A stretch of 64,000 bases of DNA, taken from Pseudomonas gozinkensis. Lineage in GTDB: Bacteria; Pseudomonadota; Gammaproteobacteria; Pseudomonadales; Pseudomonadaceae. The notes under the pieces are model-generated. The model worked only from the letters and a program-made list of their open reading frames with translations. It searched no databases and was not told where the DNA came from. Positions 33,888 to 56,032 of the stretch are shown piece after piece (position 1 is the first letter of the stretch; every line of letters begins with the position of its first letter). The stretch lies in contig NZ_CP062253.1 of NCBI RefSeq assembly GCF_014863585.1, positions 2,506,501-2,570,500 on the forward strand. The letters run 5' to 3'. The position numbers were made by a program, and so were the translations under genes.

Positions 33888-34349
<462 letters not shown>

Positions 34350-34430: not shown

Positions 34431-34448
34431 ATGGCCACCAGATCCGTT
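34431..34448 (+). pseudogene. dnaQ: dnaQ 5' end only (first six codons)
   Basis: ATGGCCACCAGATCCGTT encodes MATRSV, the start of the DNA polymerase III epsilon subunit of pseudomonads, at the expected distance after rnhA and with GAGAGCTGAACACTG upstream. The expected continuation (VLDTETTGMP) is absent: the next codons read LILSIVNAS and reach a stop soon after. The rest of dnaQ is not in the window. As dnaQ is important for viability, a full copy probably exists beyond the island. Confidence 0.6.
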
Positions 34449-34863
34449 TTGATCCTCTCGATTGTCAACGCCTCTGTAAAAAATATTTTTTTGCCCCCAA
34501 ACCCCCGCGTCCTCTGACCCCCAGAGGCCCAGCTTCTCCTGAAAAACCTCTGAATTCGTAAAAAGTGTAAAAAAGGGCCCTGTTTGGGCCCTTCTGTTTA
34601 CGTTTTATTCTGAGCCTTCGATTTGCCTGCCTGCACGCGCGCTTGGATACCTGCCTGACACACGCCCGCCCGCTGCCTGGCTGGAGACGGATCAATCACC
34701 CGTCCTACGATCATTCAGGGCCGCGAGATCAATCCTCCAATCTGCTCTCGCCCCAGCCAATGTGCGGCGAAATCGTTTATAAGCGAAGGCAATAACAGAA
34801 ACGGTGCGATACGGAGTAAGCTCCTGGTTCGGGCTCTAGTGGTATTAATTTTTTGCTTGAGGT
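34449..34863. other. island edge, no gene
   Basis: These 415 bases follow the broken dnaQ. No reading frame is convincing. A hairpin (AAGGGCCC/GGGCCCTT, 34574-34594) is followed by a weak T-rich stretch and may be a terminator. Base composition shifts from the GC-rich core towards the AT-rich island genes. I see no integrase and no tRNA. Confidence 0.5.
34574..34594. terminator. hairpin, possible terminator
   Basis: An 8-bp AAGGGCCC/GGGCCCTT stem closes a TGTTT loop, with A-rich sequence on the left and T-rich sequence on the right. Confidence 0.5.
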
Positions 34864-35922
34864 TCAGGCGTCATTTGAGCCAAAGAGCATGCTTTTTAAT
34901 GCGGCAACATCAGGGGAGCTCGCTAGTTGAATGGATGTCAGCGAGCTTACACGATGCTTGAGGTTTTCAATATCGTCCAAGAGGTCGAGAATGTCTCCGA
35001 TTGAGTTGATACGCTCCTGATCGAGTTTAATATCTCTGCTTGTGGAGTACGAGCGCATTATTAAATCATTCAATGAATACGTTTGCTCGTATTTTAAAAC
35101 ACGCTGGAAATCAATTTTTTTAATGTCTTCCTTTGTGAGTGTCGCGTATATCATGGAAAAAATATCTTCTTCATCACCCATGCCATTCACAAGCTTGGTC
35201 AGCACGCTTTTTAGTTGGTGTTCCAGCTCTTGCAGGCTCACTTCGTACCTGGGGTGAACTCGACCGTTATAAGTGAGGGAAAGCAAGTTTAGGTTGTTTA
35301 GGGTGCTTAGTAACGAATAGGCTAGATAGTTGGCGTCAAATTCCATAAAGCGCCGGAATTTGCTTTTTTTGATATTTTCCCATTGGCTGCGTTTTACTTT
35401 TCGGTACGCACCGTATGGGATGGTTTCGTTTGAGTGCCCAAATTGAACTTCGGTGCTGTCAAGGTAATCATTGATGTAACTTGCGAAATCTGCCGCAATT
35501 GCGGATGCTGCCTTGACTCCAGATGTAAAAGCAATTTTTTCGTCGGTCAGGTTACTTTTTTCCATCAGACTGGAAAAATGTTCATTGGCGTCCGTTATTA
35601 GTGCTATTAGAGTTCCAGTTTGTCGTTCTAATATGGTGTCAATTTTTGCTTCTAATGATGAAAGTGTTGATTTGTTGGCTTCGAGAGCGAGTTTTAATTT
35701 TTCGGATGCGGCACTGATGGAAATGAAACAGTATTGTTCGAAGCTTATAAAAATCTGGGGCGAAAAATAGAGATTGGAAGACGCCTCTAGAGATTTAAGG
35801 TTGCAGACAATTCGACCCAAGTTATCGCGAAGCTGAGTTCCATCAATGGAATATCCGTCATTATCTAGTTTGGCTTGAAGCTCGGGCGGTATTTTTACTG
35901 TTATATGTTTTTCGGTATCCAT
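34864..35922 (-). CDS. unknown helical/coiled-coil protein in the island
   Basis: This is a 352-residue protein that I do not recognise. Residues about 1-15 (EKHITVKIPPELQAKL) resemble a short ribbon-helix-helix-like strand-helix start. Residues about 70-130 are heptad-like (ASEKLKLALEANKSTLSSLE in two parts, KIDTILERQ), and the C-terminal third is strongly charged and helical. No signal peptide or membrane segment is seen. The gene is AT-rich compared with the core region, a sign of transfer. It ends a row of four unknown genes on the minus strand. Start ATG 35922 has CTGGAA just upstream. Confidence 0.65.
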   Translation of the reverse strand: MDTEKHITVKIPPELQAKLDNDGYSIDGTQLRDNLGRIVCNLKSLEASSNLYFSPQIFISFEQYCFISISAASEKLKLALEANKSTLSSLEAKIDTILERQTGTLIALITDANEHFSSLMEKSNLTDEKIAFTSGVKAASAIAADFASYINDYLDSTEVQFGHSNETIPYGAYRKVKRSQWENIKKSKFRRFMEFDANYLAYSLLSTLNNLNLLSLTYNGRVHPRYEVSLQELEHQLKSVLTKLVNGMGDEEDIFSMIYATLTKEDIKKIDFQRVLKYEQTYSLNDLIMRSYSTSRDIKLDQERINSIGDILDLLDDIENLKHRVSSLTSIQLASSPDVAALKSMLFGSNDA

Positions 35923-36096
35923 TTCCAGATCTCGCGTCGAATGAGGTAGAAAGGTGGTTGTGATCCACCAGTAAAAAGAGTTCTTAACCTATAAGATGAT
36001 GCCAGCAGCTAGACGTAACCTTTCTTGCTTATCGGCAGGAATTTTAGACATGTCACTTCTTGAGCGCATGGCATATGTACTTTTATGGTCAGCTGA

Positions 36097-36918
36097 TCAC
36101 TCATGTTCTGAATCCGATCCGCTCTGGGCGGTTGCTAGACCGATTTCAGCAGGAAATGCCTTGGCCATCATTTTTTCCACGACAGAATCCATTGTTCTTG
36201 CCGTGGGCGATGTGAGAAAAGATTTGTTTACAACTACGTCATCGTATTTAACAAAGTCTTTAGGGTTTGGCCGCTTAGCCTTGGCTGACGTTTTGAAGTA
36301 CGCTTTGATAATGAACTGACTTCCAGGCTGAAGATTCCAGTAATCATCGAGATTTTTCACGCTTGCCGGGAACAAAAAACGTACCCAGTTTTTTCGCCAG
36401 TATTCATTTTTTGAATTTTTCTTTTTAATTGGCGCGAAATCTTTAAGCACCAGAAGGATTAGCGGGATTTCATATTCTTTCAGATGGTGATAACCCCAGA
36501 TCTTCCTTTCGTCTGCGAAATTCAGAAGCTCAATGAAATCCTCGACTTTTGCGTAACCAACGTAGTCGCGAAATTGGAACCAGTGAAGATGCCAGCGCGA
36601 GAAAAAAGACTCTCTGAGTGCAGATGCGATCTCGGCGCTGTATGAAGCAGGGATCAGCACTTCATATTTTGCCCTGCCTCCTTCTTTAATTGGGCAAGGA
36701 TGTTGTTCGACGCCTAAGACAGGGTTGTGACTAAAGACCTTGGTGATTTTGCTTGTCCCTGACTCACCCTTGATATGAAGGTCTTCCCTGCAAACCGGAC
36801 ATCTTACCAGAGGGCGTAAATTTGGTCGGTTGGAGGCATCCAACAGCGAGCCATATTCAGCACGGTAGCCCTCGACGGTGATTGGCTTTCCAGTGCGGCT
36901 GTCTTGAGCTTGATGCAT
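36097..36918 (-). CDS. unknown protein with CoiA-like zinc-finger N-terminus
   Basis: This 273-residue protein has Cys40-Pro-Val-Cys43, then VFSH (His64) and HPCP (His73, Cys75). A CxxC pair followed by a lysine-rich strand and a H(F/S)xH motif is the layout of the N-terminal zinc finger of CoiA-like proteins, which in full form are nuclease-like. No PD-(D/E)xK core is evident here. The C-terminal half is basic (about 165-235, rich in Lys, Trp and Tyr), compatible with nucleic-acid binding. The gene is AT-rich. It lies 174 bases from the unknown gene downstream and 77 bases after the next small gene. Confidence 0.6.
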   Translation of the reverse strand: MHQAQDSRTGKPITVEGYRAEYGSLLDASNRPNLRPLVRCPVCREDLHIKGESGTSKITKVFSHNPVLGVEQHPCPIKEGGRAKYEVLIPASYSAEIASALRESFFSRWHLHWFQFRDYVGYAKVEDFIELLNFADERKIWGYHHLKEYEIPLILLVLKDFAPIKKKNSKNEYWRKNWVRFLFPASVKNLDDYWNLQPGSQFIIKAYFKTSAKAKRPNPKDFVKYDDVVVNKSFLTSPTARTMDSVVEKMMAKAFPAEIGLATAQSGSDSEHE

Positions 36919-36995
36919 ATCCCTATCTCACAAAAAATCAGATAGTGGCGTTGCGCTATGAAAAATTCAACCAGTTATTGTTGGTCAACAGGGGG

Positions 36996-37295
36996 TCAGC
37001 CTCTGAATGCTGGATTGTCTCGCGAGTCTAGGCCGGCGGCCCCATGGCTCAATCCCAGCTGGTAATAATGTCCAGCGATTGACGCGCAACTGAGCAGGCT
37101 GCCGACAGATATCTGGTCAGGTACGACTCCGATGAATATACGTTTGCGTGACTTTTTGACATTTTGCTGCAGGCGATAAACACGATAAAACTGTGATTGA
37201 TTGAAGGGAGATTTGGCGGCTTCTACCTCCCAATCACAGTGCTCTCGAAGTACGGAGTTGATTTGATCTTCGTTTAAATCAATTTTTTCGGTCAT
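36996..37295 (-). CDS. small unknown protein
   Basis: This 99-residue protein has a strong ribosome binding site (AAAAGGAGCATATACC before the ATG at 37295), which makes it a real gene. The first half has mixed charge and an EHCDWEVEAAKSPFNQSQFYRVYRL stretch (two parts) suggestive of a beta-sheet domain; the second half has KKSRKRIFIGVVPDQIS and a Gly/Ala/Ser-rich end. No known family is recognised. It lies just upstream of the CoiA-like gene and could be its partner. Confidence 0.55.
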   Translation of the reverse strand: MTEKIDLNEDQINSVLREHCDWEVEAAKSPFNQSQFYRVYRLQQNVKKSRKRIFIGVVPDQISVGSLLSCASIAGHYYQLGLSHGAAGLDSRDNPAFRG

Positions 37296-37456
37296 GGTAT
37301 ATGCTCCTTTTTAATACTTTGCAGTGGGAGCAAGTAGCTTGTAAATGTTCTTTAGGTACTATCGCTGCTATCATGCGGCGGTGAGGCTAGGCGATACCAA
37401 GGTTCCCACCTTGCTTCACATATTTTTTGCAATGTCTGGCCAATAAACGTGCCTGT

Positions 37457-38236
37457 TCAAACAAAATCTCCCGAAAGCGTCCACACCGTGCTCTGGTGCT
37501 CTTCAAAATTACCACCGATCTCCAGTGACGCCTTGCTGAGCTGAGCTTTCAGGCCGGCATTGATGCCGAAGTCTTCAGTGTATGTCAGGGTCAACGAGAA
37601 TTTTTTGAGGCCGTGCTTTGTCCGGTTATTGGCAATCGCCTGCCACATTGGTTCAAAGGGATACCAGGCCAGGTCGTCCGGGATGGTCGGCGACGCATGC
37701 CCTTCAAGGGTCGAGGTAAAGAGTAATCGCGAATTGTCACTTCGTGTATGCCCGGCCTCCATGGACGCTGTCTCACCTGTAGCCGCAAATGCACCTGCCA
37801 GATTTGCAGCGAACTCTTGCCCCCATCCTTTGACGTGTTCTGCCTGGATGTTCGATGCGCCGAGCGCAGCCAGCAAGCGAATGACCTCTGCGAATTTGTG
37901 TTCAAAGGCAAATCTATGGAATCCCGCTAGCGGGAAATACGTTGTTTGCTTCGCGGGGTGCTTTGCATAGACCAATCGCTCTTGCGGGTGGCCAGGAGGA
38001 AATTGCAGATCGCAGGCGCGCTGTGCACTGATTACTGAAACATTATCGATTTCTGCAATCGTATTGAGGACTTTTTCCAACGTTTTGGAGGTTGCGATGG
38101 AGAACCAGTCCAGTGGGTTCTTTTCACTTAAAATCGTTTCCCTAACGGTACGTAAATGCCCCGAGATTTTGTGCTCGACCTTGCCGTCCTTTGAGACAAT
38201 GATTAGCTGATTGTTCAGCGAATTCTGACCGTTCAC
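37457..38236 (-). CDS. unknown protein, probable defence-island component
   Basis: This is a 259-residue soluble protein. The middle (about 85-125) contains LVYAKHPAKQTTYFPLAGFHRFAFEHKFAE in two parts and LLAALGASNI, and the C-terminus (about 205-259) is beta-rich (LKKFSLTLTYTEDFGINAGL, SKASLEIGG, STVWTLSGDF). The pattern of a helical N-terminal part and a compact C-terminal beta part with alternating hydrophobic residues could interact with membranes, but this is speculation. The start is GTG at 38236, set by AAGGAAAACC 3-9 bases upstream. It is transcribed in the same direction as, and 153 bases after, the large RloC-like ATPase. Confidence 0.55.
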   Translation of the reverse strand: MNGQNSLNNQLIIVSKDGKVEHKISGHLRTVRETILSEKNPLDWFSIATSKTLEKVLNTIAEIDNVSVISAQRACDLQFPPGHPQERLVYAKHPAKQTTYFPLAGFHRFAFEHKFAEVIRLLAALGASNIQAEHVKGWGQEFAANLAGAFAATGETASMEAGHTRSDNSRLLFTSTLEGHASPTIPDDLAWYPFEPMWQAIANNRTKHGLKKFSLTLTYTEDFGINAGLKAQLSKASLEIGGNFEEHQSTVWTLSGDFV

Positions 38237-38389
38237 AGGTTTTCCTTGTTGATTTCAACTCTTTACACCCAGCCGCCATCAAGCTCGGATGGGGGAGATA
38301 TTCTATTCTGTCGGCGTGCTTTCTTCGATCTTTACGCAAGGATATCCAGAAGTCGGGCACCTCGCCGGTATCGCAGGCTAATTGACCCT

Positions 38390-41044
38390 TTAATTTCTAC
38401 TTTTACTGGGCGCCGTAATAGGCAACGGAGCAGAAAAGGTACCCGATTTCCTGGCGCGACTCGTCGCAGTGCTGCGAGTTTCGATTTGAAGACGCCATGC
38501 TTCCAAAGCCTGGATATCCGTGAGCAATTCATCCGGATCAGGTACCGCTACGTCACCTGCCATTGCCTTGTCATGGGCATAATTGGAGCACTTGCTCATG
38601 CCAGCAGTTACTTGCAGGTAGTCATTGTCATCAACGATGACTCCAGATAGACGCTGGGTTTCTACACCCTTGCGGAATCGTAAGACGACACACCTTAAAA
38701 GCACCTCCTCGACTGCACGTTCCCATGCCATTCGAAGTAGGAAGTATGCCTCGACGGTTTGTCTGCGGTGCTCGTCCTCTTCTCCCGATCTGAAAAGCTT
38801 TGCTATGTGCTGTTGCCGCACCTTCAATGATCCGATGCGACCAGTCGTATTTTTGCCTTCAAATGGCAGCTCCGGCGTTGCGACACCATAACCTTCAGCA
38901 CTTTGTGCGATGCTTTGGGTCATTGCGGTGACCCCAGTCGAATCTGCTTGCTCCGCTAAAACACAAAGGAAGTAGATGTCGTGGGTGAAAACGACTACCT
39001 GTCTGCGCGCCGCTTCTTTGACTAACCTAGCCGCGACACGCTCGCGACGCCGGTGATCCAGGGAGGAAACCGGGTCATCCAAAATGATGCCTCCTGTGCT
39101 TTCATCGAGCCCTACCTCGGCCAAAAAGGACGCTAATGCAATGGCTCGCTGTTCACCTTCACTGAGAAGGTCTTTCGGATTTCGACTCTGCGGCAGATCC
39201 AACTTGAGCTTGTGCAGCATTTTTCCGCGCCCTGATCGACTCTGGAGGGCAACCTGGAGACCTCCCACACCTAGCGCTTTGAACTCGGCATTAAGAGCGT
39301 CCTGGAGTGACGTGGAGATTACGGTCTCACCAATCTGAGTGGCTTTGGTTGAGATGGCATTTGTCCGAAGCGAGGTGATGCATTTGGCCAAAAGGGCCAC
39401 GTGGGTCATTCGGGAAATGGCGTTTATGACTGCGTCTTTTACCTTGCTCAGCAGCACGCGTGCTTCCAGTTCTGCATACGCCTGCTGAAGTTGAATTCTT
39501 ACCACCTCATCGGACGCCTGCTCAAGGTTGAGAGCTTGTTGATTGAGTTGGTTTACCAGTGCCTGTAATCCAGATGAGGGATTTGACGGGGGAGGCGTGA
39601 TACCTATCCAGTTGTTGGACTTCACAGCGTCAACCAATTGGTCACGACGCTCCCCTAATGCACGCTCATACTCCCGACAGTCCGCCGCGACCTTTGGAGC
39701 CAGTACGTGGATTTCCGCATGCGTGGCCTCATCGAGTCCAATCGTCACATCCAGTGTTGTAAGCGGTGTGTATTTCTCAACCATCGCTTTACGGCGGGAG
39801 CGCGACGTTTTTTCAGCCTCTTGTTGGATGAACTCCTCAAAGCGAGCCAGTCGCGCGGCGCCATCATTGAGCGTTTGCTGGCAGAGTGGACATGGGCTGT
39901 TCGGGTCGAGCGATATGAAGTCCTGACCTGGGTGGGATTCGAGAGCGAATTTACGGGCTGCGTCGAAAAGCTCCCGCCAGGCATCACCACCAGTGCCTGG
40001 TAGTAGGTTTTGCTGTTCTTTGAATTTATTCGCGGCGAGTTCCGCCGCCGATTTTGCTAGTAGATAGTCCTCAACCGATTGCTTGAGGCCTTGTTCAACG
40101 TCCTGGTCAACGTGTGGCGATTTGTTCAGGGCGGTGCCGGCAACTACAGATATACGTTGTGCCAGTCGCCTCAACTGGTTGGCCTTTTCTTTGGGATTAT
40201 TTTCCTGGAGGCTCTTGCCAATGGTCGTGTGCTGGGTGAGCTCGTCTTCTGAAAGGGTGCCGAGCGTTTGAACAGTATCTGGATTGGTCTTGGCGGAGAG
40301 AGCGGCAATCATCCTTCCAACTTCGGTCTTGCCTTGCATCGGGGAGAAGGCAGTGAGGTCAACGGAGTACTCTCTCTGCTCCTGCTCGATCGCCGTTTTT
40401 AACTGTTGCTGGAGCACGGCGAGTCGTTCAAAAACATCCAGACCGTGAGGGACATAAGAGTAGTCGGCTTCGTTTACCAGGTATGCATTTGCACAGCGGG
40501 AGTCAAAAATTGAAAGGCTGGAGAGTTCCGGCGGCGCAGGCTGGTTATCCGTCCACAGCACATCGATACCGACACCATTCACGCTAATGCTAAAGCTGGC
40601 CCGGGCATTGGCATCCACTGGTAGGGGATGATTGGCATTCGGGTAGATTGTTTCTGACTGATCCCGCGCTCGACATGCTCGTTTCAATACTCGGGAGTAC
40701 CCTGATTTGCCAGAGCCATTCCCTCCGTAAATTACAGTCAGCCCCTGCGGCGCGAATACCAGGCTGTGTTCTGGCGCAATCGCGTTGACGTTTACAAGAT
40801 TTTTGACTGCAAGCAGTTCGATGTGAGTTGTTGGTTTTATTGCAGCGGGAATCTGATCCTCATTCAGTGGGGAGGCGATACGTCCCTGCGGGTCGGTGAT
40901 TCCATGAGCTGCCTTGAGCAGGGCGAGCACATCCTCAAAGTCCTGTGGGGTCAAAGAGTCCTGCCTCAGCAAGCGTCTCACACAGTCCCCTTGCCAAGCG
41001 GGCAAACTTTTCGACCAAATCAACACTTCCTGCAGAACTGACAT
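38390..41044 (-). CDS. SMC/RloC-like ATPase with zinc hook, probable anticodon nuclease-type defence protein
   Basis: This is an 884-residue AAA_13-type ATPase. Walker A is GGNGSGKS at residues 107-114. A long coiled-coil follows, with a CPLC zinc hook at 385-388 as in Rad50 and RloC. The ABC signature is LSEGEQ at 627-632, Walker B is GGIILDDPVSSLD at 651-663, and the H-loop is FTHD near 686. The C-terminal domain (about 740-860) holds Arg771-x3-Glu775 and His824 in SNYAHD, similar in order to the Arg-Glu-His triad of the PrrC/RloC tRNA anticodon nucleases, though the Glu-His spacing (49) is longer than the 32 I recall for PrrC. Start ATG 41044 has GGAGG upstream. No restriction-modification genes accompany it. 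Confidence 0.72.
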   Translation of the reverse strand: MSVLQEVLIWSKSLPAWQGDCVRRLLRQDSLTPQDFEDVLALLKAAHGITDPQGRIASPLNEDQIPAAIKPTTHIELLAVKNLVNVNAIAPEHSLVFAPQGLTVIYGGNGSGKSGYSRVLKRACRARDQSETIYPNANHPLPVDANARASFSISVNGVGIDVLWTDNQPAPPELSSLSIFDSRCANAYLVNEADYSYVPHGLDVFERLAVLQQQLKTAIEQEQREYSVDLTAFSPMQGKTEVGRMIAALSAKTNPDTVQTLGTLSEDELTQHTTIGKSLQENNPKEKANQLRRLAQRISVVAGTALNKSPHVDQDVEQGLKQSVEDYLLAKSAAELAANKFKEQQNLLPGTGGDAWRELFDAARKFALESHPGQDFISLDPNSPCPLCQQTLNDGAARLARFEEFIQQEAEKTSRSRRKAMVEKYTPLTTLDVTIGLDEATHAEIHVLAPKVAADCREYERALGERRDQLVDAVKSNNWIGITPPPSNPSSGLQALVNQLNQQALNLEQASDEVVRIQLQQAYAELEARVLLSKVKDAVINAISRMTHVALLAKCITSLRTNAISTKATQIGETVISTSLQDALNAEFKALGVGGLQVALQSRSGRGKMLHKLKLDLPQSRNPKDLLSEGEQRAIALASFLAEVGLDESTGGIILDDPVSSLDHRRRERVAARLVKEAARRQVVVFTHDIYFLCVLAEQADSTGVTAMTQSIAQSAEGYGVATPELPFEGKNTTGRIGSLKVRQQHIAKLFRSGEEDEHRRQTVEAYFLLRMAWERAVEEVLLRCVVLRFRKGVETQRLSGVIVDDNDYLQVTAGMSKCSNYAHDKAMAGDVAVPDPDELLTDIQALEAWRLQIETRSTATSRARKSGTFSAPLPITAPSKSRN

Positions 41045-41266
41045 GAAACCTCCATTTCCATGCGATACCGTCCAGCTCTAAGCTTTTGGTTTCGCTCTGG
41101 TTTCTATGTAGGTGACCAGCAAAAGCATGGTGAGTAGTTCGCGCTGTGATCGAACCTAATCCACATAAGTTGTGAGTCTAGCTTGTTCAGTGATGATGAC
41201 TTCTCGGATACTCCATTCTCTTAAATTAATTTCCAAAAATACTCACAATGCCCTAGCGAGGCTGAC

Positions 41267-42139
41267 TTGAGACGAAGTGATTATCTGCAAGGTGACGTTG
41301 CGCGATTTTACAAATGGCTATCCCAGCGATTGAGGGGGTGCCCTATTCATTTTTCGATCACGGGATATCACAGGCAATATCCAGCGTTGTATGACGCATT
41401 GAACGCATACAGGTGGCCACCGAGGGAGGTGTCTGGTCGACCGAATCCTGATGGCAGTTATCCCTACATGCACCCAACGGTGCCTACCTTAGTGGCAAAC
41501 AGTACGTTGGCCGCCAATTCGGAAGTACTTGAGATTATCCAGAAGGCATTACGAACTGCGTACGCTGAGGCACCCGCGTCGAGCAGCGCGCTTGCTGGGG
41601 CAGTGGCAGCCACGCTCCACTGGGGCGGCGTTTATACGAGAACTAGACATGGTGGTAACAAGCCCTGGCTTGCTCAAAATTACGTGAATTTGTTCTCCGT
41701 CCTTCAAAATGTAGTGAAGGATCATGCCCTAGGAGACGATGTCAGCGGGGTTGCCGCGTTGCGCTTTAATTCCGGGATGACGAAGATATACTCGCTCCTC
41801 ATAGATGATTTCATTATCTATGACAGCAGGGTCGCTGCGGCGTTAGCTTGGTTGGCCCTGAAATGGTGGACGGTTATTGAAGGTAAGCCGCAAAACCAGA
41901 TACATGAGCACCTTCGCTTTCTATGTCTCCCAGGTAACGGAAAATCACGGAAACTTCGTAATCCTGCGCCTTCAGTGTTTACGACCCACGCGACCAATCC
42001 CTATGAGCACTACAAATGGAACGTGCGAGCTAACTGGTTGCTACATCATGCTCAGGTGCTGGCAGGTAAAAAAAGCCGCTTCAGTTCATTGCGTGAGGTT
42101 GAGGCGGCGCTGTTTCAGATGGGGGAGAGAGTGGTTTAA
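41267..42139 (+). CDS. unknown protein in defence-rich region
   Basis: This 290-residue soluble protein starts at TTG 41267 (CGAGG 6 bases upstream); no ATG is available near the N-terminus. It is rich in aromatic residues (YKWLSQRL, WPPREVSG, LAWLALKWWTVIEG) and helical. The order of segments (a helical core, then KIYSLLIDDFIIYDSRVAAALAWL in two parts) recalls helical DNA-repair or glycosylase-like folds, but I cannot name a family. It is divergent from the RloC-like ATPase with a 220-base gap, so the two may share a regulatory region. Confidence 0.5.
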   Translation: MRRSDYLQGDVARFYKWLSQRLRGCPIHFSITGYHRQYPALYDALNAYRWPPREVSGRPNPDGSYPYMHPTVPTLVANSTLAANSEVLEIIQKALRTAYAEAPASSSALAGAVAATLHWGGVYTRTRHGGNKPWLAQNYVNLFSVLQNVVKDHALGDDVSGVAALRFNSGMTKIYSLLIDDFIIYDSRVAAALAWLALKWWTVIEGKPQNQIHEHLRFLCLPGNGKSRKLRNPAPSVFTTHATNPYEHYKWNVRANWLLHHAQVLAGKKSRFSSLREVEAALFQMGERVV

Positions 42140-42332
42140 ATTAGCGAGAGATCGAAGAGCTACGATTCAAAAAGAGTTGTGTGGTTACCATTAGATCCTT
42201 GGTCGCTACGCTAAAAAACTCAGGTTGGTGATCGAGTAAATGAAGCTGGGGTTCGTAGCAAACGGGGCCGTTCGGGGAGAAATACGGTGCAGCGCTCTTG
42301 CTCCGCGCTTCCATCTTTAAGCAAAAAAATGG

Positions 42333-42554
42333 TCATTCGGAAGTGCCTGCACTTCTCCCCAGCCTCGCGATCCCCTGCTTGATATGCCCGGCATTCTCGC
42401 CAATTGTGTCCAGCGCAACCCGAGCATTGTCACAAGCCTCAGATGACCCTCGCTTCTCCTCCAGCAGCACAAGTTCCATCAGCGCTGCTTCGATGGCCAG
42501 TTGATTTTCGTACAGTCTTGCCAGTACGTCGGGAAGGGAATATTGCTCGGCCAT
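42333..42554 (-). CDS. small conserved Pseudomonas protein
   Basis: This is a 73-residue helical protein (MAEQYSLPDVLARLYENQLA, IEAALMELVLLEEKRG). The start ATG 42554 has CGGAGTCGAG about 8 bases upstream; the longer frame from 42674 starts inside the neighbouring regulator gene. Similar short proteins occur in Pseudomonas accessory regions and prophages. It has an amphipathic helix-turn-helix look that fits a dimer. The function is unknown. Confidence 0.6.
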   Translation of the reverse strand: MAEQYSLPDVLARLYENQLAIEAALMELVLLEEKRGSSEACDNARVALDTIGENAGHIKQGIARLGRSAGTSE

Positions 42555-42655
42555 GACTCGACTCCGTTCGGATGGAGAGCAAAAGCATAGCAGTGGTTCG
42601 AAGACGGCCTGTATTGCCTGGCGGGCGAGGTCATAGACAAGAAAGAGCAAAAAAC

Positions 42656-43111
42656 TCAGTCCAAGCGATTCCAATGGCGCTGAACGGTGGTTTTTGCCAT
42701 CCCCAGCTTCATTGCAACCTCAGCCCGCGAAAGGCCTTGCTCCTTGAGCACCCGGACGGCCTCTCGCGCTTGGGTGGCTGCAGTAACGCGCGGGTGAGGG
42801 GACGGCTCCATTTTCATTGGGATCGAACCCTTCAACAGCTTCAGCGATTTCAGATCCCTTTCAGCATTCTTCAGGATCTCGCCGGCGCTCAAATCGTCCT
42901 GCACTCCACATACGATTGCCATTAGCGCAACAGGACTGATCTCCAGCGCGTCGGCAAGCTCAATGATGGCCTCCAGGCTTGGTGAGGTCTTCTCATTCTC
43001 GATGCGGCTGACATGCGATTGATCGACCTTTTGGCTCAGCGCTTGCTGCGTGAGATCACGTTGGGCTCGCAAGAGCTTTAAGGTCGCGGCAAATGCGGTG
43101 CGGACAGACAT
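42656..43111 (-). CDS. XRE-family regulator with additional C-terminal HTH
   Basis: This 151-residue protein has a Cro/CI-type helix-turn-helix at residues about 8-62 (LKLLRAQRDLTQQALSQKVD, QSHVSRIENEKTSPSLE) and a second resolvase-like helix-turn-helix at the C-terminus (about 118-148, LSRAEVAMKLGMAKTTVQRHW in parts). Two DNA-binding units in such a small protein suggest that it bridges or bends DNA. It is probably a local repressor in the island. Start ATG 43111 has CGGAACGGAA upstream. It lies 101 bases upstream of the small gene, in the same direction. Confidence 0.8.
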   Translation of the reverse strand: MSVRTAFAATLKLLRAQRDLTQQALSQKVDQSHVSRIENEKTSPSLEAIIELADALEISPVALMAIVCGVQDDLSAGEILKNAERDLKSLKLLKGSIPMKMEPSPHPRVTAATQAREAVRVLKEQGLSRAEVAMKLGMAKTTVQRHWNRLD

Positions 43112-43528
43112 TTTTCCGTTCCGTAAAAACAGAGCTGTATGCCGCGATTGCCATGATCCACTCAAATGTATATATTCATTCTGGTGGATCTGACGGCTCG
43201 TTAATGCAGCGACACGCTTTGGAGGCTCGGCGACGTGACAGCCGTTAGTCATTCAATTTAGCTGTAAATCGAGATCAAGATCGGGAGACAGATCGAATCT
43301 GTGCAGCGAACGCTCATCAACTGAGCCTCTGCTCCAATGCTTCGCCTAGCCGTGCTGTGTACACCAAACATAATGCATGTACGGCGCCCATCCGAACGCA
43401 CGGCGGGGGCGGACGTGCGAGAACCACGAACCTCTATTTTTAGTAAAGAAGGGCGGTCTGAATGGTCGATGGTCTCGGCGAGATTTTGCGTGATAGGAGC
43501 GTTGCTCCCCTGGTGACAGTCCGGCGTG
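43112..43528. other. divergent intergenic region
   Basis: These 417 bases lie between the XRE regulator and the next small gene and should hold both promoters. A short hairpin (GGAGC GTT GCTCC, 43496-43508) sits just before the 43529 gene and could mask its start. No gene or known repeat is supported. Confidence 0.4.
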
Positions 43529-43837
43529 ATGATTGATCAACAGAGTCTTTCATGTGTCCCGGCAGCCGTCGCTGTGGCGATGGAAAAGGACTTCGGAGTG
43601 CCCGTTACGGCGTACTTATTCGCCGCCATCGACAGTCCACCTGTTCTGATGGGAACGGTTTACGGCGATACCACTGGGCGATTTCGCGAGGGAACCAGCA
43701 TGCGGACGTCGAGGATCATAGGCGTGCTGTTCATCGATGGTTATTCGCTATTCAGAACCATCGCCGGCAGCCTCTACGTGGTGGTCAGTTGGATACCTGG
43801 AGGAAGCAATATTTATATGAATCGCGTTTATCACTGA
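43529..43837 (+). CDS. small hypothetical protein
   Basis: This is a 102-residue beta-rich protein. The repeated pattern RTSRIIGVLFIDGYSLFRTI (two halves) then SLYVVVSWIPGG and the RFREGTSMRTS segment is typical of short Pseudomonas island proteins with an SH3-like beta fold. The start ATG at 43529 (or the preceding GTG) lacks a good ribosome binding site. No function is known. The next gene, in the same direction, begins 121 bases later. Confidence 0.5.
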   Translation: MIDQQSLSCVPAAVAVAMEKDFGVPVTAYLFAAIDSPPVLMGTVYGDTTGRFREGTSMRTSRIIGVLFIDGYSLFRTIAGSLYVVVSWIPGGSNIYMNRVYH

Positions 43838-43958
43838 GTATTTTTTGGCTAGATGCTTTTTTCAACAACTCGCTGCGGCAATCAGGTTGGCGAGGGGTAA
43901 GGGCACTGTGAAAGAGCTCCTCTTCGCGTGCAGGGTAGAGCGGTAGGTTTGATTGGCA

Positions 43959-44396
43959 ATGGAAAAAATGAGCGTTACAGATGTTGAGTTGTTGGGGGAT
44001 TTGTTTTTTGGGCCGGCCACCGTCTTGGGTGGTTCAGGGTTAGACGACGGGGCACTGAAGCAGGCCGCAATGGAATCATTCCCTGAAAAGCGCAGCTGCG
44101 TGGTGCGTGAGTGGATGCTCCTCGATTTGATGCTTGAGGATGAGTGTCAGCGGGAGATGAGGGGCCAAGGGTTAGTACCTACCATCCTGTACACCCAAAA
44201 TCTGGTGTTCGACAGCGCCCAAAAACTTCCTGAGCGAGGCCTATTCAGAACGCATTTTGCGACCTCTGTAGAAGGTTGCTTCTTCGAAACGACCGATACG
44301 GTTTTCGTACTCGCTGGCAGAGGCAGTCGTAAGTATGCAAGTCTTTGTGCAATCAGCGCACTGGACTTGGCCATTAAGATGCAACCGATACGCTAA
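43959..44396 (+). CDS. DUF6957-like hypothetical protein
   Basis: This is a 145-residue cytoplasmic protein. The opening VELLGDLFFGPATVLGGSGL and KRSCVVREWMLLDLMLEDEC with a later FATSVEGCFFETTDTVFVLAGRG (two parts) match, from memory, a Pseudomonas-limited family called DUF6957. Start ATG 43959 is chosen; an ATG at 43974 and an upstream TTG are also in frame. The frame stays open for 200 bases after its stop codon, which may be chance. Confidence 0.6.
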   Translation: MEKMSVTDVELLGDLFFGPATVLGGSGLDDGALKQAAMESFPEKRSCVVREWMLLDLMLEDECQREMRGQGLVPTILYTQNLVFDSAQKLPERGLFRTHFATSVEGCFFETTDTVFVLAGRGSRKYASLCAISALDLAIKMQPIR

Positions 44397-44648
44397 GCCA
44401 AGCAAGCGCATCAGTTTGAACGCAACGAGACAATTCGACACTTTCAGGCAAGCAGACAGCACGTCCAAACAGGGTACAACGTAAGCGGGACATTGACCGT
44501 GATGACCATGACACCGTCGGGTCGGAGGACGGGCATTTCCGACGACTCGGACTTCACTCTGCTGGTGTCCTTCCGATGCCGCGCGGATACGAACTGAGCG
44601 ACGCTGCGCTAAAATCGCGCGATGTGAACAAGTGATCAGGTCTATTCG

Positions 44649-44909
44649 ATGGATGAAGCAACAATCTCTCGCCTACAGTGGCTGGACGAATCGGCCAGTG
44701 ATCACGGTTGGAACAATCGTGAAGAAATTAACGCGAGCGTGAGATGCATCTGCAGCGCCTGTGGACAATGGTCAGAACCCGCCAACATCACAAGGTGGTA
44801 CAAAGAAAAGCACGCCTGTTGCCCCTACTGTGGGCTGACCGGTGTTGTGGTTGGCTCAGAGTCGGGACTGCCGCTTGAGGAATACGAGAACTGCCGAATT
44901 CCTGAGTAG
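44649..44909 (+). CDS. small zinc-ribbon-like protein
   Basis: This 86-residue acidic protein has two cysteine pairs, CICSAC near residue 33 and CCPYC near residue 57, spaced as in a zinc ribbon. The tail is acidic (EEYENCRIPE). No catalytic domain is present, so it is likely a small metal-bound regulatory or structural protein. It ends before a clear terminator. The family is unnamed to me. Confidence 0.6.
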   Translation: MDEATISRLQWLDESASDHGWNNREEINASVRCICSACGQWSEPANITRWYKEKHACCPYCGLTGVVVGSESGLPLEEYENCRIPE

Positions 44910-44944
44910 CGCAGCCCCATACAATTCGCTCGTTGGAAAAGCCC

Positions 44945-44975
44945 AGAACCCGCCATAAAGCGGGTTCTGTCGTTT
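44945..44975 (+). terminator. rho-independent terminator
   Basis: AGAACCCGC (44945-44953) pairs with GCGGGTTCT (44960-44968), followed by GTCGTTT. It lies 36 bases after the zinc-ribbon gene. Confidence 0.75.
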
Positions 44976-45020
44976 ATGAAACATAGGAAAACCATGATTT
45001 GCATTCAAAGGCCAATGGAT

Positions 45021-45137
45021 TCATTCGAGCCAATCCCGAAGAACGGCCCGAAGCATTTCCTGAACGAGTGCCTGCACCATTTTTTCAGCAAGAAACTGGG
45101 CTGCGGATTTGAAGCGGCTCTTGTGTCGCATGGGCAT
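45021..45137 (-). CDS. very small basic helical protein
   Basis: A 38-residue frame starts at ATG 45137 with GGAGAAGGAA directly upstream, a strong ribosome binding site. The product (MPMRHKSRFKSAAQFLAEKM, VQALVQEMLRAVLRDWLE) is basic at the N-terminus and an amphipathic helix after it, so it may bind membrane or act as a small toxin or antitoxin-like peptide. No homologue is recalled. It is listed because of its start signal; the length alone gives little support. Confidence 0.35.
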   Translation of the reverse strand: MPMRHKSRFKSAAQFLAEKMVQALVQEMLRAVLRDWLE

Positions 45138-45299
45138 TTCCTTCTCCAATGATTGAAATTTCAACAGGGCTATCGAAGCAACAACTGTCAGAGCTGTTGA
45201 CGTCATAGCGTGTTGAACAGATGCAATGGTGAAGGCAAAAAAAGCCTGCTTTTGAGGCTGGTTTGCATGGTTTTTACGTCGAGCATGGCTGCTCTAGAA

Positions 45300-45488
45300 T
45301 CAAATCGCTTCCAGGTTTTTCACTGAAGAAGTTGATTTGTTCAGGTGACTCACCAGAGCCTCACGCAGCGTCTCCAAAGCATCCTGCAGACGCCGCTTCT
45401 CTCTCGGATCATCTCCTGCCGGCACAAAGCTCTCGCAATGTCTGATCAGCGCCTCACAGTCGTTTGCATTCAAATCAAACTCGATCAT
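45300..45488 (-). CDS. small hypothetical protein
   Basis: This is a 62-residue acidic helical protein (MIEFDLNANDCEALIRHCES, then DDPREKRRLQDALETL). Its start at ATG 45488 overlaps the end of the upstream gene by 14 bases, which points to translational coupling; the longer frame is not supported. Similar short proteins with the DCEALxxH pattern occur in Pseudomonas. The function is unknown. Confidence 0.5.
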   Translation of the reverse strand: MIEFDLNANDCEALIRHCESFVPAGDDPREKRRLQDALETLREALVSHLNKSTSSVKNLEAI

Positions 45489-45897
45489 TTTCAAACCACT
45501 CCCGGTGCGCTTTGAGATGTGCCATTTCCCGTACCCATAGTCGTAAAAAGCGTCGCCAGTCACTTGCGTAGCTTCCTTGGGGTAAACGGGTTGAAAGCAT
45601 GCTGGCGGCTTCAAATCTTGCGTGCCAAGGTTGGGGTATGTGCTGATCCAGGACGATCACAAAAGAATGGCCATCAGTGCCTTCGATTCGCGTCTCTGGA
45701 ACGGCCTCACGAAGCTCATCTAGCGACATGGCGCCGGAGAGTCCAATAGGATTTTCCAGATCCTGCCGGTCGATTTCAGCCAGTGTGGCCAAAAGTGCTT
45801 TGGCTTCTGCTGCGCCAGATTGCAGAACTTCCAGATCCCACAACGCTTCTCTACGGTTTCGCTCGCGCAGCCAAAGGGCTTTTAGATCACTGTCCAT
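45475..45897 (-). CDS. hypothetical protein
   Basis: This is a 140-residue protein with an acidic, helical N-terminal half (LWLRERNRREALWDLEVLQS) and a C-terminal half with SFVIVLDQHIPQPWHARFEA and SDWRRFLRLWVREM. ATG 45897 has TAAGGAG 7 bases upstream and is clearly the start, though the frame is open to 46068. It forms a two-gene overlapping unit with the following 62-residue gene. No family is recognised. Confidence 0.55.
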   Translation of the reverse strand: MDSDLKALWLRERNRREALWDLEVLQSGAAEAKALLATLAEIDRQDLENPIGLSGAMSLDELREAVPETRIEGTDGHSFVIVLDQHIPQPWHARFEAASMLSTRLPQGSYASDWRRFLRLWVREMAHLKAHREWFENDRV

Positions 45898-46263
45898 CCG
45901 TAACTCCTTACTGCATTGACTGTCTGTTGGCACCATTAACATTTCAGCGAATGCTATCAGCGACTGCTGGGAAAGGGCGCTATGGATGGTGAAAAGGATA
46001 TGCAAATAGAATTCCGGTAAAAGGTAAGGGGCAGTGACAGGAGAACTATAGGTGAGGACTGCTTGCAACGTAATGTACGTCGCTTGTGGTCGCCCAGTAT
46101 CGGGCTACGCAATATTTTCGCCTATGCAAAGGACGGCTTGCGGCGATTTGCTGACGCTCACGAACGCCTGCTTTCGGCCAGAAGCAGTCATTTGCAGCCC
46201 AGAAAAAAGTGAGACCCAATCGAGTAAGGGATATATTGCCTGCCTCGAAACAGACTTGTATTC
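45898..46263. other. intergenic region with part of a repeated palindromic element
   Basis: These 366 bases contain no supported gene. CTTTCGGCCAGAAGC at 46171-46185 is found again in inverted form at 46903-46917, on the other side of the kinase-like gene, as part of an intergenic sequence family common in Pseudomonas. Confidence 0.5.
46171..46185 (+). repeat. copy 1 of an inverted repeat flanking the kinase-like gene
   Basis: CTTTCGGCCAGAAGC is the reverse complement of bases 46903-46917. The flanks (GCAGTCA against GCGGTCAG types) are also similar to the widespread intergenic motif of fluorescens pseudomonads. Confidence 0.5.
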
Positions 46264-46818
46264 ATGGAGGAAAAATTGCGGATTTACATTACAGGTGCTT
46301 CGTGTGCGGGCGTGACTACTTTGGGTCAAAACGTCGCAACTCTGCTCGGTGTACGCCAGGTCGATGTCGATGATTACTTCTGGATGCCTACTGACCCTCC
46401 TTTTACGACCAAGCGAACTCCCAGTGAGCGCGTGTCATTGATCCAGCAAAAGTTCGGTGATGACGATTGGGTGCTAACCGGTTCTTGCATGGTCTGGGGA
46501 GAAGCGCTGATTACCCATGTCGATCTGATTGTTTTCGTTGTAACTCCAACACCCACTCGCCTTGAACGGCTGGCCGCCCGTGAAAAGGAGCGTTTTGGAG
46601 ATCGGATAGCACCGGGCGGTGACATGCATGAGATACATGTAGCCTTTCGGGAATGGGCTTCGCAGTATGACGATCCGAACTTTTCAGGACGCAACCGGGC
46701 GTGGCACGAGGCGTGGCTATCAGAGCAGACCGCTCCGGTCTTACGGATTGACGGGATGAACAGTGCTGAAAAGATGGTTGCGGATGTCATTCATGCTTTG
46801 TCGCAAGTAGCGCAATAA
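46264..46818 (+). CDS. P-loop kinase-like protein with altered Walker A
   Basis: This 184-residue protein resembles the adenylate/shikimate kinase-like P-loop group. The P-loop at residues about 10-20 reads ITGASCAGVTTLG: the usual Lys before Thr is Val. DVDDYFWMPTDPPFTTKR is the substrate-binding-like segment, and residues about 115-160 form a lid-like helical part. A family with GxSGxGVSTL-like loops is known among annotated 'AAA family ATPase' proteins, so the change may be normal for it. ATG 46264 lacks a clear ribosome binding site. The substrate is unknown. Confidence 0.7.
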   Translation: MEEKLRIYITGASCAGVTTLGQNVATLLGVRQVDVDDYFWMPTDPPFTTKRTPSERVSLIQQKFGDDDWVLTGSCMVWGEALITHVDLIVFVVTPTPTRLERLAAREKERFGDRIAPGGDMHEIHVAFREWASQYDDPNFSGRNRAWHEAWLSEQTAPVLRIDGMNSAEKMVADVIHALSQVAQ

Positions 46819-46902
46819 CTCGAGGCCGGAACGGCTGAGGCACGACTCAACACGCTTTAGTAATGCTCGCTTCGGGTCGAAAGCGGTCAGTCGCGACCGT
46901 CC

Positions 46903-46917
46903 GCTTCTGGCCGAAAG
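46903..46917 (-). repeat. copy 2 of an inverted repeat flanking the kinase-like gene
   Basis: GCTTCTGGCCGAAAG is the reverse complement of bases 46171-46185 and lies inside a longer imperfect palindrome (about 46864-46920, with AAGCGG/CCGCTT arms). Confidence 0.5.
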
Positions 46918-46989
46918 TGATCTTCCACAAGGACAGCAAAATTGGAAACTCGAAAAGCTTTGATAACTGCCCGCTGCTTTCTCCAAGGC

Positions 46990-46997
46990 ATAAAAAA
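46990..46997. repeat. left target-site duplication of the insertion sequence
   Basis: ATAAAAAA directly abuts the left inverted repeat and is identical to bases 48306-48313. Confidence 0.85.
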
Positions 46998-48305
46998 GGT
47001 TCTTCACGGAATCCCGGGAAACACAGAAACAAGAACGCCGATTTGATTGATGATGTTCGTGCGAGCAAACACATCTAACAAACCGGCGTTCTTATGCGCG
47101 ATATTAATACTTTCCTTCCTTTTTGGGAGGGCTTTTCTGTCGTCACGATCAAGCCTGATGGTGACGCTCTACAGATCGATCTGATTCCCCACGCCACCCG
47201 ATTCCCTTCCTGCGGTGGCTGCCAAAAACCTTGTTCATCCACTCATGAGTATTGCGAGCGAACCGTACGTGATCTGCCCATTCTCGGCCGTGCGGTGCGC
47301 CTCAGTGTTTTGCTCAGACGGGTTGTCTGTCGGGACTGCGGCAAACGCATGGAAGCCGTCAGTTGGCTGGATCGCTATGCGCGCATGACGCGCCGCTTGG
47401 CTGATGCGGTTATTCAGGCTTGCGAGCGCCTTCCCACGCTGCACGTGGCCCAGATGCTTGGGTTGCATTGGGGCACGGTTCGGTTGTTGGAGCGTCGCGC
47501 TTTGCAGGCGGTATTGAGTGAACTGCCGAAGGCGCAACCACGACGCTTGGTGATGGATGAGTTCGCGCTGTTCAAAGGGCATCGCTACGCCAGTGTTGTG
47601 CTGGATGCCGATACGCGACGAGTGCTCTGGATCGGCGAAGGTCGCAGCCGGGCGGCGGTTCGGCCCTTTTTCGAAGAGCTTGGGACAGAGGGGTGTGCTC
47701 GTATCGAAGCGGTGGCCATGGACATGAACACTGCGTTTGACCTGGAGGTTCGTCAGCACTGCCCGAACGCGCGAGTGGTCTACGACCTGTTTCATGTGGT
47801 GGCCAAATATGGCCGAGAAGTCATTGATCGGGTCCGCGTCGACGAAGCTAACCGATTACGGCACGACAAGCCGGCGCGCAAGGTCATCAAGCAGGCGCGA
47901 TGGCTGTTACTGCGCAATCCACAAAATCTGAAAACGCCGGACCAGCAGGTTCACTTGCAGGATTTGTTGGAGGCCAACCAATCGCTGATGACGGTGTATT
48001 TGATGAAGGCTGAGCTAAAAACACTTTGGACGCCGATTACTGCTTGGGCTTGGCGATCAGCCTGGAAGCAATGGCTGCGCCATGCTCATGAAAGTGAAAT
48101 CCCCGCCTTGATCCAATTTGCCAAACGGCTAAAGGGATATTGGCGTGGCATCGTCAGTCGCGTTCGCTGGCCGATGCATACCGGTCAGCTGGAAGGAATA
48201 AACAACCGAATAAAGGTTATCAAGCGGATGGCGTACGGTTACCGGGACAGCGAGTTCTTCTTCATGAAGATCAAGAGCGTCTTTCCCGGTAATCCGTGAA
48301 GAACC
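46998..48305 (+). mobile_element. ISL3-family insertion sequence, complete
   Basis: The element is 1308 bp long. Its ends are imperfect inverted repeats: GGTTCTTCACGGAATCCCGG at 46998-47017 faces the reverse complement of CCGGTAATCCGTGAAGAACC at 48286-48305, with one mismatch. It is flanked by perfect 8-bp direct repeats, the size expected for ISL3 elements, and contains one full-length transposase. All this indicates a recent, intact insertion. Confidence 0.93.
47094..48299 (+). CDS. ISL3-family transposase
   Basis: This 401-residue transposase has an N-terminal zinc-binding region (CGGCQKPC ... C, then VVCRDCGKRM at about 80-89), a helix-turn-helix (LHVAQMLGLHWGTVRLLERR), and the DDE domain: Asp in RLVMDEFALFKGH, Asp in VAMDMNTAFDL, and a C-terminal Glu in TGQLEGINNRIKVIKR. 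The stop lies 6 bases inside the right end of the element. The frame is uninterrupted, so the element may be active. Confidence 0.93.
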   Translation: MRDINTFLPFWEGFSVVTIKPDGDALQIDLIPHATRFPSCGGCQKPCSSTHEYCERTVRDLPILGRAVRLSVLLRRVVCRDCGKRMEAVSWLDRYARMTRRLADAVIQACERLPTLHVAQMLGLHWGTVRLLERRALQAVLSELPKAQPRRLVMDEFALFKGHRYASVVLDADTRRVLWIGEGRSRAAVRPFFEELGTEGCARIEAVAMDMNTAFDLEVRQHCPNARVVYDLFHVVAKYGREVIDRVRVDEANRLRHDKPARKVIKQARWLLLRNPQNLKTPDQQVHLQDLLEANQSLMTVYLMKAELKTLWTPITAWAWRSAWKQWLRHAHESEIPALIQFAKRLKGYWRGIVSRVRWPMHTGQLEGINNRIKVIKRMAYGYRDSEFFFMKIKSVFPGNP

Positions 48306-48313
48306 ATAAAAAA
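48306..48313. repeat. right target-site duplication of the insertion sequence
   Basis: ATAAAAAA follows the right inverted repeat and is identical to bases 46990-46997. Confidence 0.85.
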
Positions 48314-48336
48314 CCTCGCCGAAGCAAGGTTTTTCT
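48309..48336 (-). terminator. UUCG-loop terminator of the minus-strand (Shango) operon
   Basis: Read on the minus strand, AACCTTGC pairs with GCGAGGTT (one G-U pair) around a TTCG tetraloop and is followed by a run of T. The insertion sequence sits immediately downstream and duplicated the T run as its target site. Confidence 0.8.
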
Positions 48337-48352
48337 CTTCGTTTACGCCTGA

Positions 48353-48530
48353 TCAGGTGCCTAGCAAGCTAGCCGGCTTTCTCCACTCTGTAGGCGGCTC
48401 GTCTGCCAAGGGAACCAAAGCCTCATATTTTATGATGCCGGCAATCCTGGCCGCTTTGTCGATGTTGTCACGAGCATCCTTAAGAGCAGATGCTTTAGTC
48501 CAGCCAGTCGTGTAGTGCCCCGGGTATCAT
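48353..48530 (-). pseudogene. frameshifted small gene or gene tail behind sngC
   Basis: On the minus strand, ATG 48530 opens MIPGALHDWLD and then stops. In another frame the next bases read TGWTKASALKDARDNIDKAA and continue RIAGIIKYEALVPLADEPPT up to a TGA at 48353-48355, just before the terminator. The uninterrupted, well-composed 57-codon frame has no start codon of its own. It could be a fourth gene of the operon disabled by one frameshift, or the remains of a replaced gene. No family is recognised. I cannot rule out that it is chance. Confidence 0.3.
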
Positions 48531-48545
48531 TTCATTGGGATTTGT

Positions 48546-54470: not shown

Positions 54471-55191
54471 GAGTATTTCAGCCTTGAAAGTTGGATGCTG
54501 GCGCAATGGAAGTATCCGACAAATGCATTCATAGGGCCATGGGCTACGCAGCGCTTCTGATCGGAGAAAAGCCCATCAGAGATCCCAAGGCGTTAGCTGT
54601 CTACAGTCACCCTTGTGATCGAGCGCTTTGGCTATAGCCGTTTTCTCCAACGGGTTGAATTATTCAAGCATGGAATATAGGCCTTCGATTGATTTTTGCT
54701 GTCAGCCAGTTGTGACACTTAGCAGAGCTGAGGATTGATTACGTCTGTGGCGTTGTCTCAGCTCCAGGCGCTCGCAGATTCGTTGTATTCACAGGGCTAG
54801 GCAGTAGAGGGAAGGGCATAGCCTCTATTGTTCTGGCGACGTCAACAAAAATATATTTTCGAAGCGCCCCTTGAAAATTTTTTTGTGCGACGGATCTTTA
54901 TATTTGAGGACAACAGAAAAGCAGCGATCTCGGCTCCTCACCGTCCACAGGTCTTTCAGGCAGACTGTTGTGGTTTTTCGCTGTTGCTGTGCCCTTGCTT
55001 TTGGATTTTTCCTACGACCTACCTTTGCTAACGCTGGTGTATGGCGGCCTCATGGGTACAGCAAAATCGTTCTTTAGCGGCTGAAAGCCGCTGCTAACCC
55101 GTTTGATTTCAAATTCATGGGCTTTTTTTTGAAAAAATACCCGTGCCGGACAACAAATGGGCTGGGCTGTTGTTTGAAAAAGGTGATGTAA
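54471..55191. other. intergenic region upstream of the Shango operon
   Basis: These 721 bases hold no convincing gene on either strand; the open frames at 54,828-55,077 have no start signals or protein-like composition. The region must contain the promoter of the Shango operon. It is AT-rich in its middle part (54,840-55,190), the kind of sequence MvaT-type proteins bind. Confidence 0.5.
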
Positions 55192-55548
55192 ATGCACAGT
55201 GAGCTTGAGTCTGTCGTGTGGCTCTCGGTGCAGAAAGCATGCGACGCTACAGTATTCGAATCACTGATTCAGCGGGCCGTGGATGGCTTTAAGAGGGCTC
55301 CTGGATTTGATCCTTTGGTGCGTTTGCATGCCTCTGAAATAGGCTCGCTAGGTCTTCAAGTACTGAAGGCTGTGCTGCGGCAGCGAGGGGTTCATCCAGA
55401 ACCTTGCGTCGATGTACCAGGTTGCCTTCAACTGAGGTCTCGACTTAGAGATCACCTACGCTCTGAGCTTCAGTGGTATCTAGTAAAGGGTGGGCATGGA
55501 ACTGAGAGGATCCAAGAAGATCAGCTCGAAAGAGATTTGGGGCTGTAA
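55192..55548 (+). CDS. hypothetical protein
   Basis: This is a 118-residue helical protein with ATG 55192 and AAAAAGGTG 7 bases upstream. Sequence highlights are WLSVQKACDATVFESLIQRA, then PEPCVDVPGCLQLRSRLRDH and LERDLGL. No domain is recognised. It stands just upstream of the MvaV-like gene in the same direction with 56 bases between, so the two may share a promoter. Confidence 0.5.
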   Translation: MHSELESVVWLSVQKACDATVFESLIQRAVDGFKRAPGFDPLVRLHASEIGSLGLQVLKAVLRQRGVHPEPCVDVPGCLQLRSRLRDHLRSELQWYLVKGGHGTERIQEDQLERDLGL

Positions 55549-55604
55549 ACGCTCTATCATGTTACAGATCTATTCTGCGTCATCCACTTTGAAGGAAATT
55601 ATGC

Positions 55605-55970: not shown

Positions 55971-56032
55971 GTTGCTGTTGAGCGCAACGAGCTCTTCGAA
56001 GCCTATGTGAAAATACGCTCGCGAATGTATCA

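Follow-up and report, generated by a model that had tools for sequence, protein, structure and literature searches.

The DNA analysed here (the window) is a stretch of 64,000 nucleotides from Pseudomonas gozinkensis, corresponding to C1:2506501-2570500 of a genome that consists of a single 6.56-Mb contig. Within it dnaQ, which encodes epsilon, the proofreading subunit of DNA polymerase III (Pol III), is broken off after exactly 18 bases (ATGGCCACCAGATCCGTT, i.e. the first six codons, window positions 34431-34448), with unrelated DNA beyond. A complete dnaQ starts on the same strand 108 kb downstream, at C1:2649065, outside the window. We consider it very probable that a 108-kb ginABCD-like island has entered dnaQ by site-specific recombination and supplies an in-frame start of its own, from which DnaQ is predicted still to be made. 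The features at the left junction, in window coordinates, are as follows.

33888..34349, plus strand: rnhA, the core gene to the left of the insertion, an open reading frame (ORF) whose matches in close Pseudomonas are 95-100% identical
34431..34448, plus strand: orphan six codons of native dnaQ, the left flank of the left attachment site (attL), same as the uninterrupted site in locus L065
34449..34454, plus strand: 6-bp core of attL, TTGATC (GTACTC at the right end and in the empty site)
34455..34575, plus strand: conserved left terminus of the element, 95.9% identical to the Pseudomonas koreensis element over 121 bp
34559..34607, no strand assigned: subterminal inverted repeat I1, with GTAAA/TTTAC words around a GGGCCC hairpin and a T-rich tail, maybe also a terminator
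34455..64000, no strand assigned: the part of the element inside the window, out of 108,128 bp overall, running on to C1:2649082

The right end lies outside the window and is given in coordinates of locus L009.

13667-14080, minus strand: ginD-type gene, 137 amino acids (aa), no family match
14073-16163, minus strand: ginC-type gene, 696 aa, no family match
16120-17721, minus strand: ginB-type gene, 533 aa, Phage_integrase match below the curated cut-off and NCBIfam site-specific integrase match, also below cut-off
17718-18971, minus strand: ginA-type gene, 417 aa, Phage_integrase domain
19066: element-encoded dnaQ start
19084-19089: core of the right attachment site (attR)

A preliminary description of the window had placed the left edge of an island after codon 6 of dnaQ, following rnhA; the identities of both genes were backed by sequence searches, and the edge itself was confirmed by comparison with an island-free genome. 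In the nearest relative among the 29 genomes searched (G016, 98% by DnaQ) the site is uninterrupted and reads ATGGCCACCAGATCCGTT-GTACTC-GATACC (locus L065). In a blastn comparison with this locus the left flank aligned up to window position 34448 (L065 base 2239) and the right flank from C1:2649083 onwards (L065 base 2238), and therefore the two flanks abut in the relative. Two things differed from L065: the attL core, which is TTGATC where L065 has GTACTC, and part of the spacer between rnhA and dnaQ, farther to the left. The element spans C1:2540955-2649082, plus one 6-bp core. The same pair of junctions was found in P. koreensis DSM 16610 (loci L030/L043), whose element has the core GTACTC at both ends. 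The right 6.5 kb of the two elements (the gin end with dnaQ) are 93% identical and the cargo they have in common amounts to just four pieces longer than 150 bp, each of 0.2-1.1 kb; judged by these alignments, they are one backbone with mostly different cargo at the same site. The G+C content was 61.9% in window 8001-34430 versus 51.8% over the element. The AT-rich DNA that had been described past the junction is most evident at 35-37 kb (G+C 0.41-0.46); the first 250 bp of the element have 53.6% G+C.

The complete dnaQ was found where the preliminary description had expected it, on the far side of the insertion and beside integrase genes; it is the only match in the genome above the DnaQ family cut-off. 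The expectation that it would begin with the same 18 bases proved wrong. It starts ATGGTTAACAGGTTAGTA-GTACTC-GATACC (MVNRLV-VL-D) in place of ATGGCCACCAGATCCGTT-GTACTC-GATACC (MATRSV). The ATG and the first codons are thus supplied by the element, native dnaQ resumes at the 6-bp core, and the new ATG is 94 bp from ginA. Alignment to E. coli DnaQ identified the codon right after the core as the Asp of LDTETTG, the core being the two codons (Val/Ile-Leu) before the catalytic aspartate of DnaQ. We take this residue to be Asp12 of E. coli DnaQ, with Asp12 and Glu14 presumably the catalytic residues. A far dnaQ dead on sequence grounds was rejected, as its score against the Pol III epsilon equivalog was 354 bits, where the cut-off is 196. 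Two other candidates were also discarded: a tRNA-borne island, as no tRNA was found in the window or in loci L006-L010, and an Rfam RNA at the site, as none was found in window 33800-64000.

The gin-type genes lie in the order ginABCD at the right end and read away from dnaQ. GInt islands are described as having ginABCD at one end, with the catalytic residues of tyrosine recombinases in GinA and GinB and the first Arg absent from GinC, exchangeable cargo, a short far end that contains conserved AT-rich stretches, imperfect att repeats and a 6-nt core (PMC5385486, main text). The present element carries three recombinase-type genes and one for a small protein at its right end, followed by cargo; a short far end, conserved over 121 bp at 95.9% and enriched in TTTACA/TGTAAA words, yet of 53.6% G+C in its first 250 bp; and att arms that are alike, not identical, with an empty site and a 6-bp core. 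Named genome contigs were scanned for GinA with a method that finds close relatives only, and all 13 loci found adjoin dnaQ; the hosts are Pseudomonas, Vreelandella/Halomonas, Leclercia, Collimonas, Herbaspirillum and Duganella. Relatives of all four gin genes were present in the A-B-C-D order at 11 of the 13, the remaining two being L036, with only A and D, and L041, which runs off its contig. With roles assigned by eye, the invariant residues were R223, H343, R346, W377 and Y387 of GinA (16 rows), R205/R206, R362, H382 and Y391/Y392 of GinB (12 rows) and H473, R476, W496 and Y508 of GinC (12 rows). By gene set and build the element would be classed as a GInt.

It is improbable that the element is instead a strand-biased circularizing element (SE), an RIT element or a Tn554-type element. 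SEs and Tn554 do have a 6-bp core and several tyrosine recombinases in common with it (PMC10214605, in the part consulted). However, the gene set here is 417, 533 and 696 aa plus a small protein, with the largest protein third, while an SE consists of intA, CDS2, intB and CDS4 and the archetype RIT of three proteins of 315-410 aa (PMC10214605), and the sister elements of the present one lie at the 3' end of ssb, a known GInt site (PMC5385486).

We determined how widely the dnaQ site is used. A GinA match at E<=1e-40 was present in 19 of 398 Pseudomonas genomes, with 7 at dnaQ, 10 at the 3' end of ssb and 2 in a MocR-type gene. In these genomes, GInt-like elements at the 3' end of ssb (L020-L029) outnumber those at dnaQ (10 vs 7 of 398). 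An alignment of dnaQ-site GinA (A1) was then used as the query at E<=1e-60. At class level 2 of 369 genomes were positive, the present genome alone at dnaQ. The family of Leclercia gave 18 matches in 17 of 246 genomes, one at dnaQ, three near ssb and 14 within 1.5 kb of neither dnaQ nor ssb (tblastn); the family of Collimonas gave 3 of 294, none of them new and each at dnaQ; and the family of Vreelandella gave 5 of 201, three at dnaQ and two near ssb. With genomes that are the same by coordinates counted once (G245 = L032, G024 = L040), the dnaQ site accounts for 20 distinct elements, whose hosts are Pseudomonas, Halomonadaceae, Leclercia and three genera of Oxalobacteraceae. The rnhA-to-dnaQ/ginA spans of those with both ends on one contig ranged from 12 to 108 kb.

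In a GinA tree of 51 rows, one clade (100/100) held all 20 rows labelled dnaQ (19 distinct) together with four that bore the label other, namely G137 (in fact located at dnaQ), G134, G182 and a copy on a Stutzerimonas stutzeri plasmid. (The tree was built without L103, L106, L112 and L032; L094, L096 and L114-L117 are duplicates of loci already included.) This clade therefore has 20 of its 23 distinct elements at dnaQ. The table issued with the tree predates the resolution of G137 and gives four changes for the label dnaQ, not one. On the other side of the root were 27 rows, 14 with the ssb label and 13 without a site label. The preliminary description had called the start of a proofreading gene an unusual attachment site; this stands for genomic islands generally, but within its own GInt-like clade the site is the usual one.

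Several members of this group have features of their own. In G137 (L125) about 2 kb with further ORFs lie between ginA and the element-encoded dnaQ start. G134 and G182 (L131, L012, L013), the closest sister pair (55% GinA), carry the element inside a MocR-type regulator gene with its first part cut off, and their dnaQ is uninterrupted. The Stutzerimonas copy is a dnaQ-clade GInt on a 265-kb plasmid (NZ_CP046903.1; L093 8100-9010) with the core followed by non-dnaQ DNA, and its GinA is split into two parts that lie in different frames; this plasmid is a possible vehicle between chromosomes. A plasmid search gave 63 records with a match, of which the best was examined (41% identity; next 32%), and a search of phages found no match. 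With the Leclercia element end as a DNA query, 5,374 of 5,426 E. coli genomes matched, none over more than 80% of the query, a search that distant elements would escape; the best 20 of the 5,374 matches cover just the dnaQ part of the query. In G013 (L132, L145) rnhA and dnaQ are 125 kb apart and the dnaQ, beside galU, begins MSGQVSVNRMVVL, which is element-like. It was not counted as an element because a search for GinA at 1e-40 gave no hit and the DNA behind rnhA showed no recognisable element end; this arrangement is either a relic or a rearrangement.

The replaced start was a property of all 20 elements at dnaQ. At every right end the core codes for Val-Leu or Ile-Leu ahead of Asp, in the same register throughout, and at all 18 left ends located the remnant fits the native dnaQ 5' end (cores there set by eye). 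An in-frame ATG before any stop, at most 13 codons upstream of the core, was present in 20/20 elements, versus 0/20 in each of the other two frames and a composition-based expectation of 0.17 per element. All 20 elements themselves code for Arg at -5 and Val/Ile at -3, the full dnaQ frame is kept in 20/20, and the leader varies from 8 to 15 codons between ATG and Asp. TTTACA/TGTAAA words were counted within 250 bp of the ends, with expectations from mononucleotide shuffling: there were 46 versus 2.9 expected at the 18 left ends and 43 versus 4.3 at the 20 right ends. These words, occurring at both ends, are likely to be recombinase-binding repeats.

It could be argued that the insertion leaves dnaQ poorly expressed or dead and that the intact frame is incidental. 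The lack of a convincing promoter at the element's own right end would fit such an outcome, to which we give only a slim chance, given the full frame in 20/20 elements and the frame-specific ATG, Arg-5 and Val/Ile-3 in the part that the element contributes.

The exact insertion, the position of the core, the element ATG, the intact dnaQ frame and the shared clade were all observed directly, and they are consistent with the following mechanism. The island's own Gin proteins likely integrate it at the 6-bp core, ahead of the codon for the first catalytic aspartate. The left end leaves the six orphan codons of native dnaQ behind rnhA, and the right end gives the ATG and the codons up to the core (MVNRLV for MATRSV); because these are in frame, a full-length DnaQ can be read. 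By analogy with GInt and dusA-island precedents, transcription and translation of dnaQ would begin within the element, and the native start would be regained if the island left as a circle. The right arm is likely to have two jobs, as a recombinase site and as coding sequence for the first DnaQ residues, and the island is likely to be mobile. VLDTETTG, the motif whose codons the core borders, is very conserved in DnaQ, so that a single attachment site would be usable in gamma- and betaproteobacteria.

A number of points weigh against this interpretation. For other GInts, GinABCD is reported to integrate and excise the element across the 6-bp core (PMC5385486), but no movement was seen here. 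The link to the published Gin proteins would be indirect, via the ssb 3'-end sisters. Both ends are on one contig in only 12 of the 20 elements, and as the elements are related, the 20/20 counts are not independent. In the dnaQ clade, three of the 23 elements (G134 and G182 at the MocR-type gene, and the Stutzerimonas plasmid copy) are not at dnaQ. Collimonas humicola (L036 7001-8886) has ginA followed by ginD at dnaQ, with no recognisable ginB or ginC. The weakest step is the expression of dnaQ from element signals, which would need an outward promoter. A scan of the element's own right end did not find a sigma-70 consensus site, and only 4 of the 20 leaders had a promoter score that ranks with the best 10% of resampled sequence, those of G010 and G024 standing out by extended -10 sites; as a set the 20 leaders scored slightly better than resampled sequence (Kolmogorov-Smirnov p 0.008), but the rows are related.

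Two further explanations concern the junctions themselves. The far dnaQ could be a foreign second copy brought by the island, with the native dnaQ destroyed, a scenario suggested by first codons unlike the native ones. It is very improbable, because from the core on the far dnaQ and its downstream DNA are 94.9% identical over 2,239 bp to the uninterrupted locus of G016, starting one base after the left flank ends, and no second match in the genome exceeds the family cut-off. An assembly error or a chance 18-base match at 34,449 is scarcely credible, given a genome in one contig, flanks that abut in the empty site and the P. koreensis element, in which both junctions recur around largely different cargo.

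The cargo was surveyed from 89 greedily chosen ORFs of at least 100 aa in the element, part of which were scanned for families. The features recognised are listed below, in window coordinates except for the last.

38390..41044, minus strand: 884-aa AAA ATPase, candidate defence family PDC-S06 (PADLOC, 4.9e-216)
47094..48299, plus strand: ISL3-family transposase (Pfam DDE_Tnp_ISL3)
48546-50786, minus strand: Shango sngC (PADLOC SngC, 2.3e-292)
50761-52056, minus strand: Shango sngB (PADLOC SngB, 9.2e-185)
52053-54506, minus strand: Shango sngA (PADLOC SngA, 5.1e-121)
55605..55970, plus strand: protein with an MvaT-type silencer DNA-binding domain (Pfam MvaT_DBD)
L009 1443-3643: DncV-like nucleotidyltransferase and adjoining patatin-like phospholipase, a CBASS-like pair near the other island end

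The Shango set of SngA, SngB and SngC is complete in the island (48546-54506), and the MvaT-domain protein is possibly a xenogeneic silencer carried by it. Further cargo comprises RND efflux genes, hydantoinase genes, FAA-hydrolase genes and a P450 fusion.

These results indicate that the gene for the Pol III proofreading subunit has been invaded repeatedly by islands of about 12 to 108 kb, which swapped its start for their own; the present island is loaded with anti-phage and catabolic genes. This provides a testable link between a mobile element and the control of replication fidelity, and the position of the core beside the catalytic motif suggests how one attachment site works from Enterobacteriaceae to Oxalobacteraceae. 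It also calls for caution in annotation, as a dnaQ start next to gin genes is element-derived. A more far-reaching proposal, which we regard as doubtful, is that such islands hold the proofreader hostage: the element's dnaQ start would set the amount of epsilon, a sloppy loss of the right end would disable proofreading, carriage would shift the mutation rate, and the core would border the catalytic motif as the stretch that hosts can least afford to change.

Two aspects of this arrangement are already known, i.e. the GInt kind of island and the principle of an element-supplied promoter and N-terminus (dusA islands, SXT). SEs and Tn554 resemble the present element in their several tyrosine recombinases, 6-bp footprint and site specificity, but differ in gene sets and orders, and SEs leave no empty site on circle formation (PMC10214605). 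In Photorhabdus and Xenorhabdus, dnaQ is among the island-flanking genes in three of four genomes, in an account that, in the part consulted, gives no junction, recombinase, mechanism or dnaQ side (PMC3091717). The literature on dnaQ and mobile-element insertion sites yielded, in the portion covered, a case of plasmid transposition. The literature searched, including the main text of the GInt paper, yielded no GInt lineage specific to dnaQ, although Table S3 of that paper may give a dnaQ site (PMC5385486), and the consulted part of a ginABCD paper has no dnaQ (PMC8865565). GInts are known to enter 5' or 3' gene ends, with outward transcription for an element at an ABC transporter gene, and their recorded targets include ssb and a ribonucleotide reductase gene (PMC5385486). 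The present element differs from those in the main text of that paper in its target, dnaQ, which is absent there, in its size (108 kb versus 'at least 76 kb') and in a right end that gives the target a new start codon and new first residues, a feature not described there. The dusA islands and SXT (in prfC) replace the target start likewise, and the dusA signals work, although more weakly than the native ones, in a lacZ fusion (PMC8409611). Those elements use other integration machinery and other targets, and expression was measured there whereas it is predicted here. With the present element, dnaQ joins ssb and the ribonucleotide reductase gene (PMC5385486) as a GInt target.
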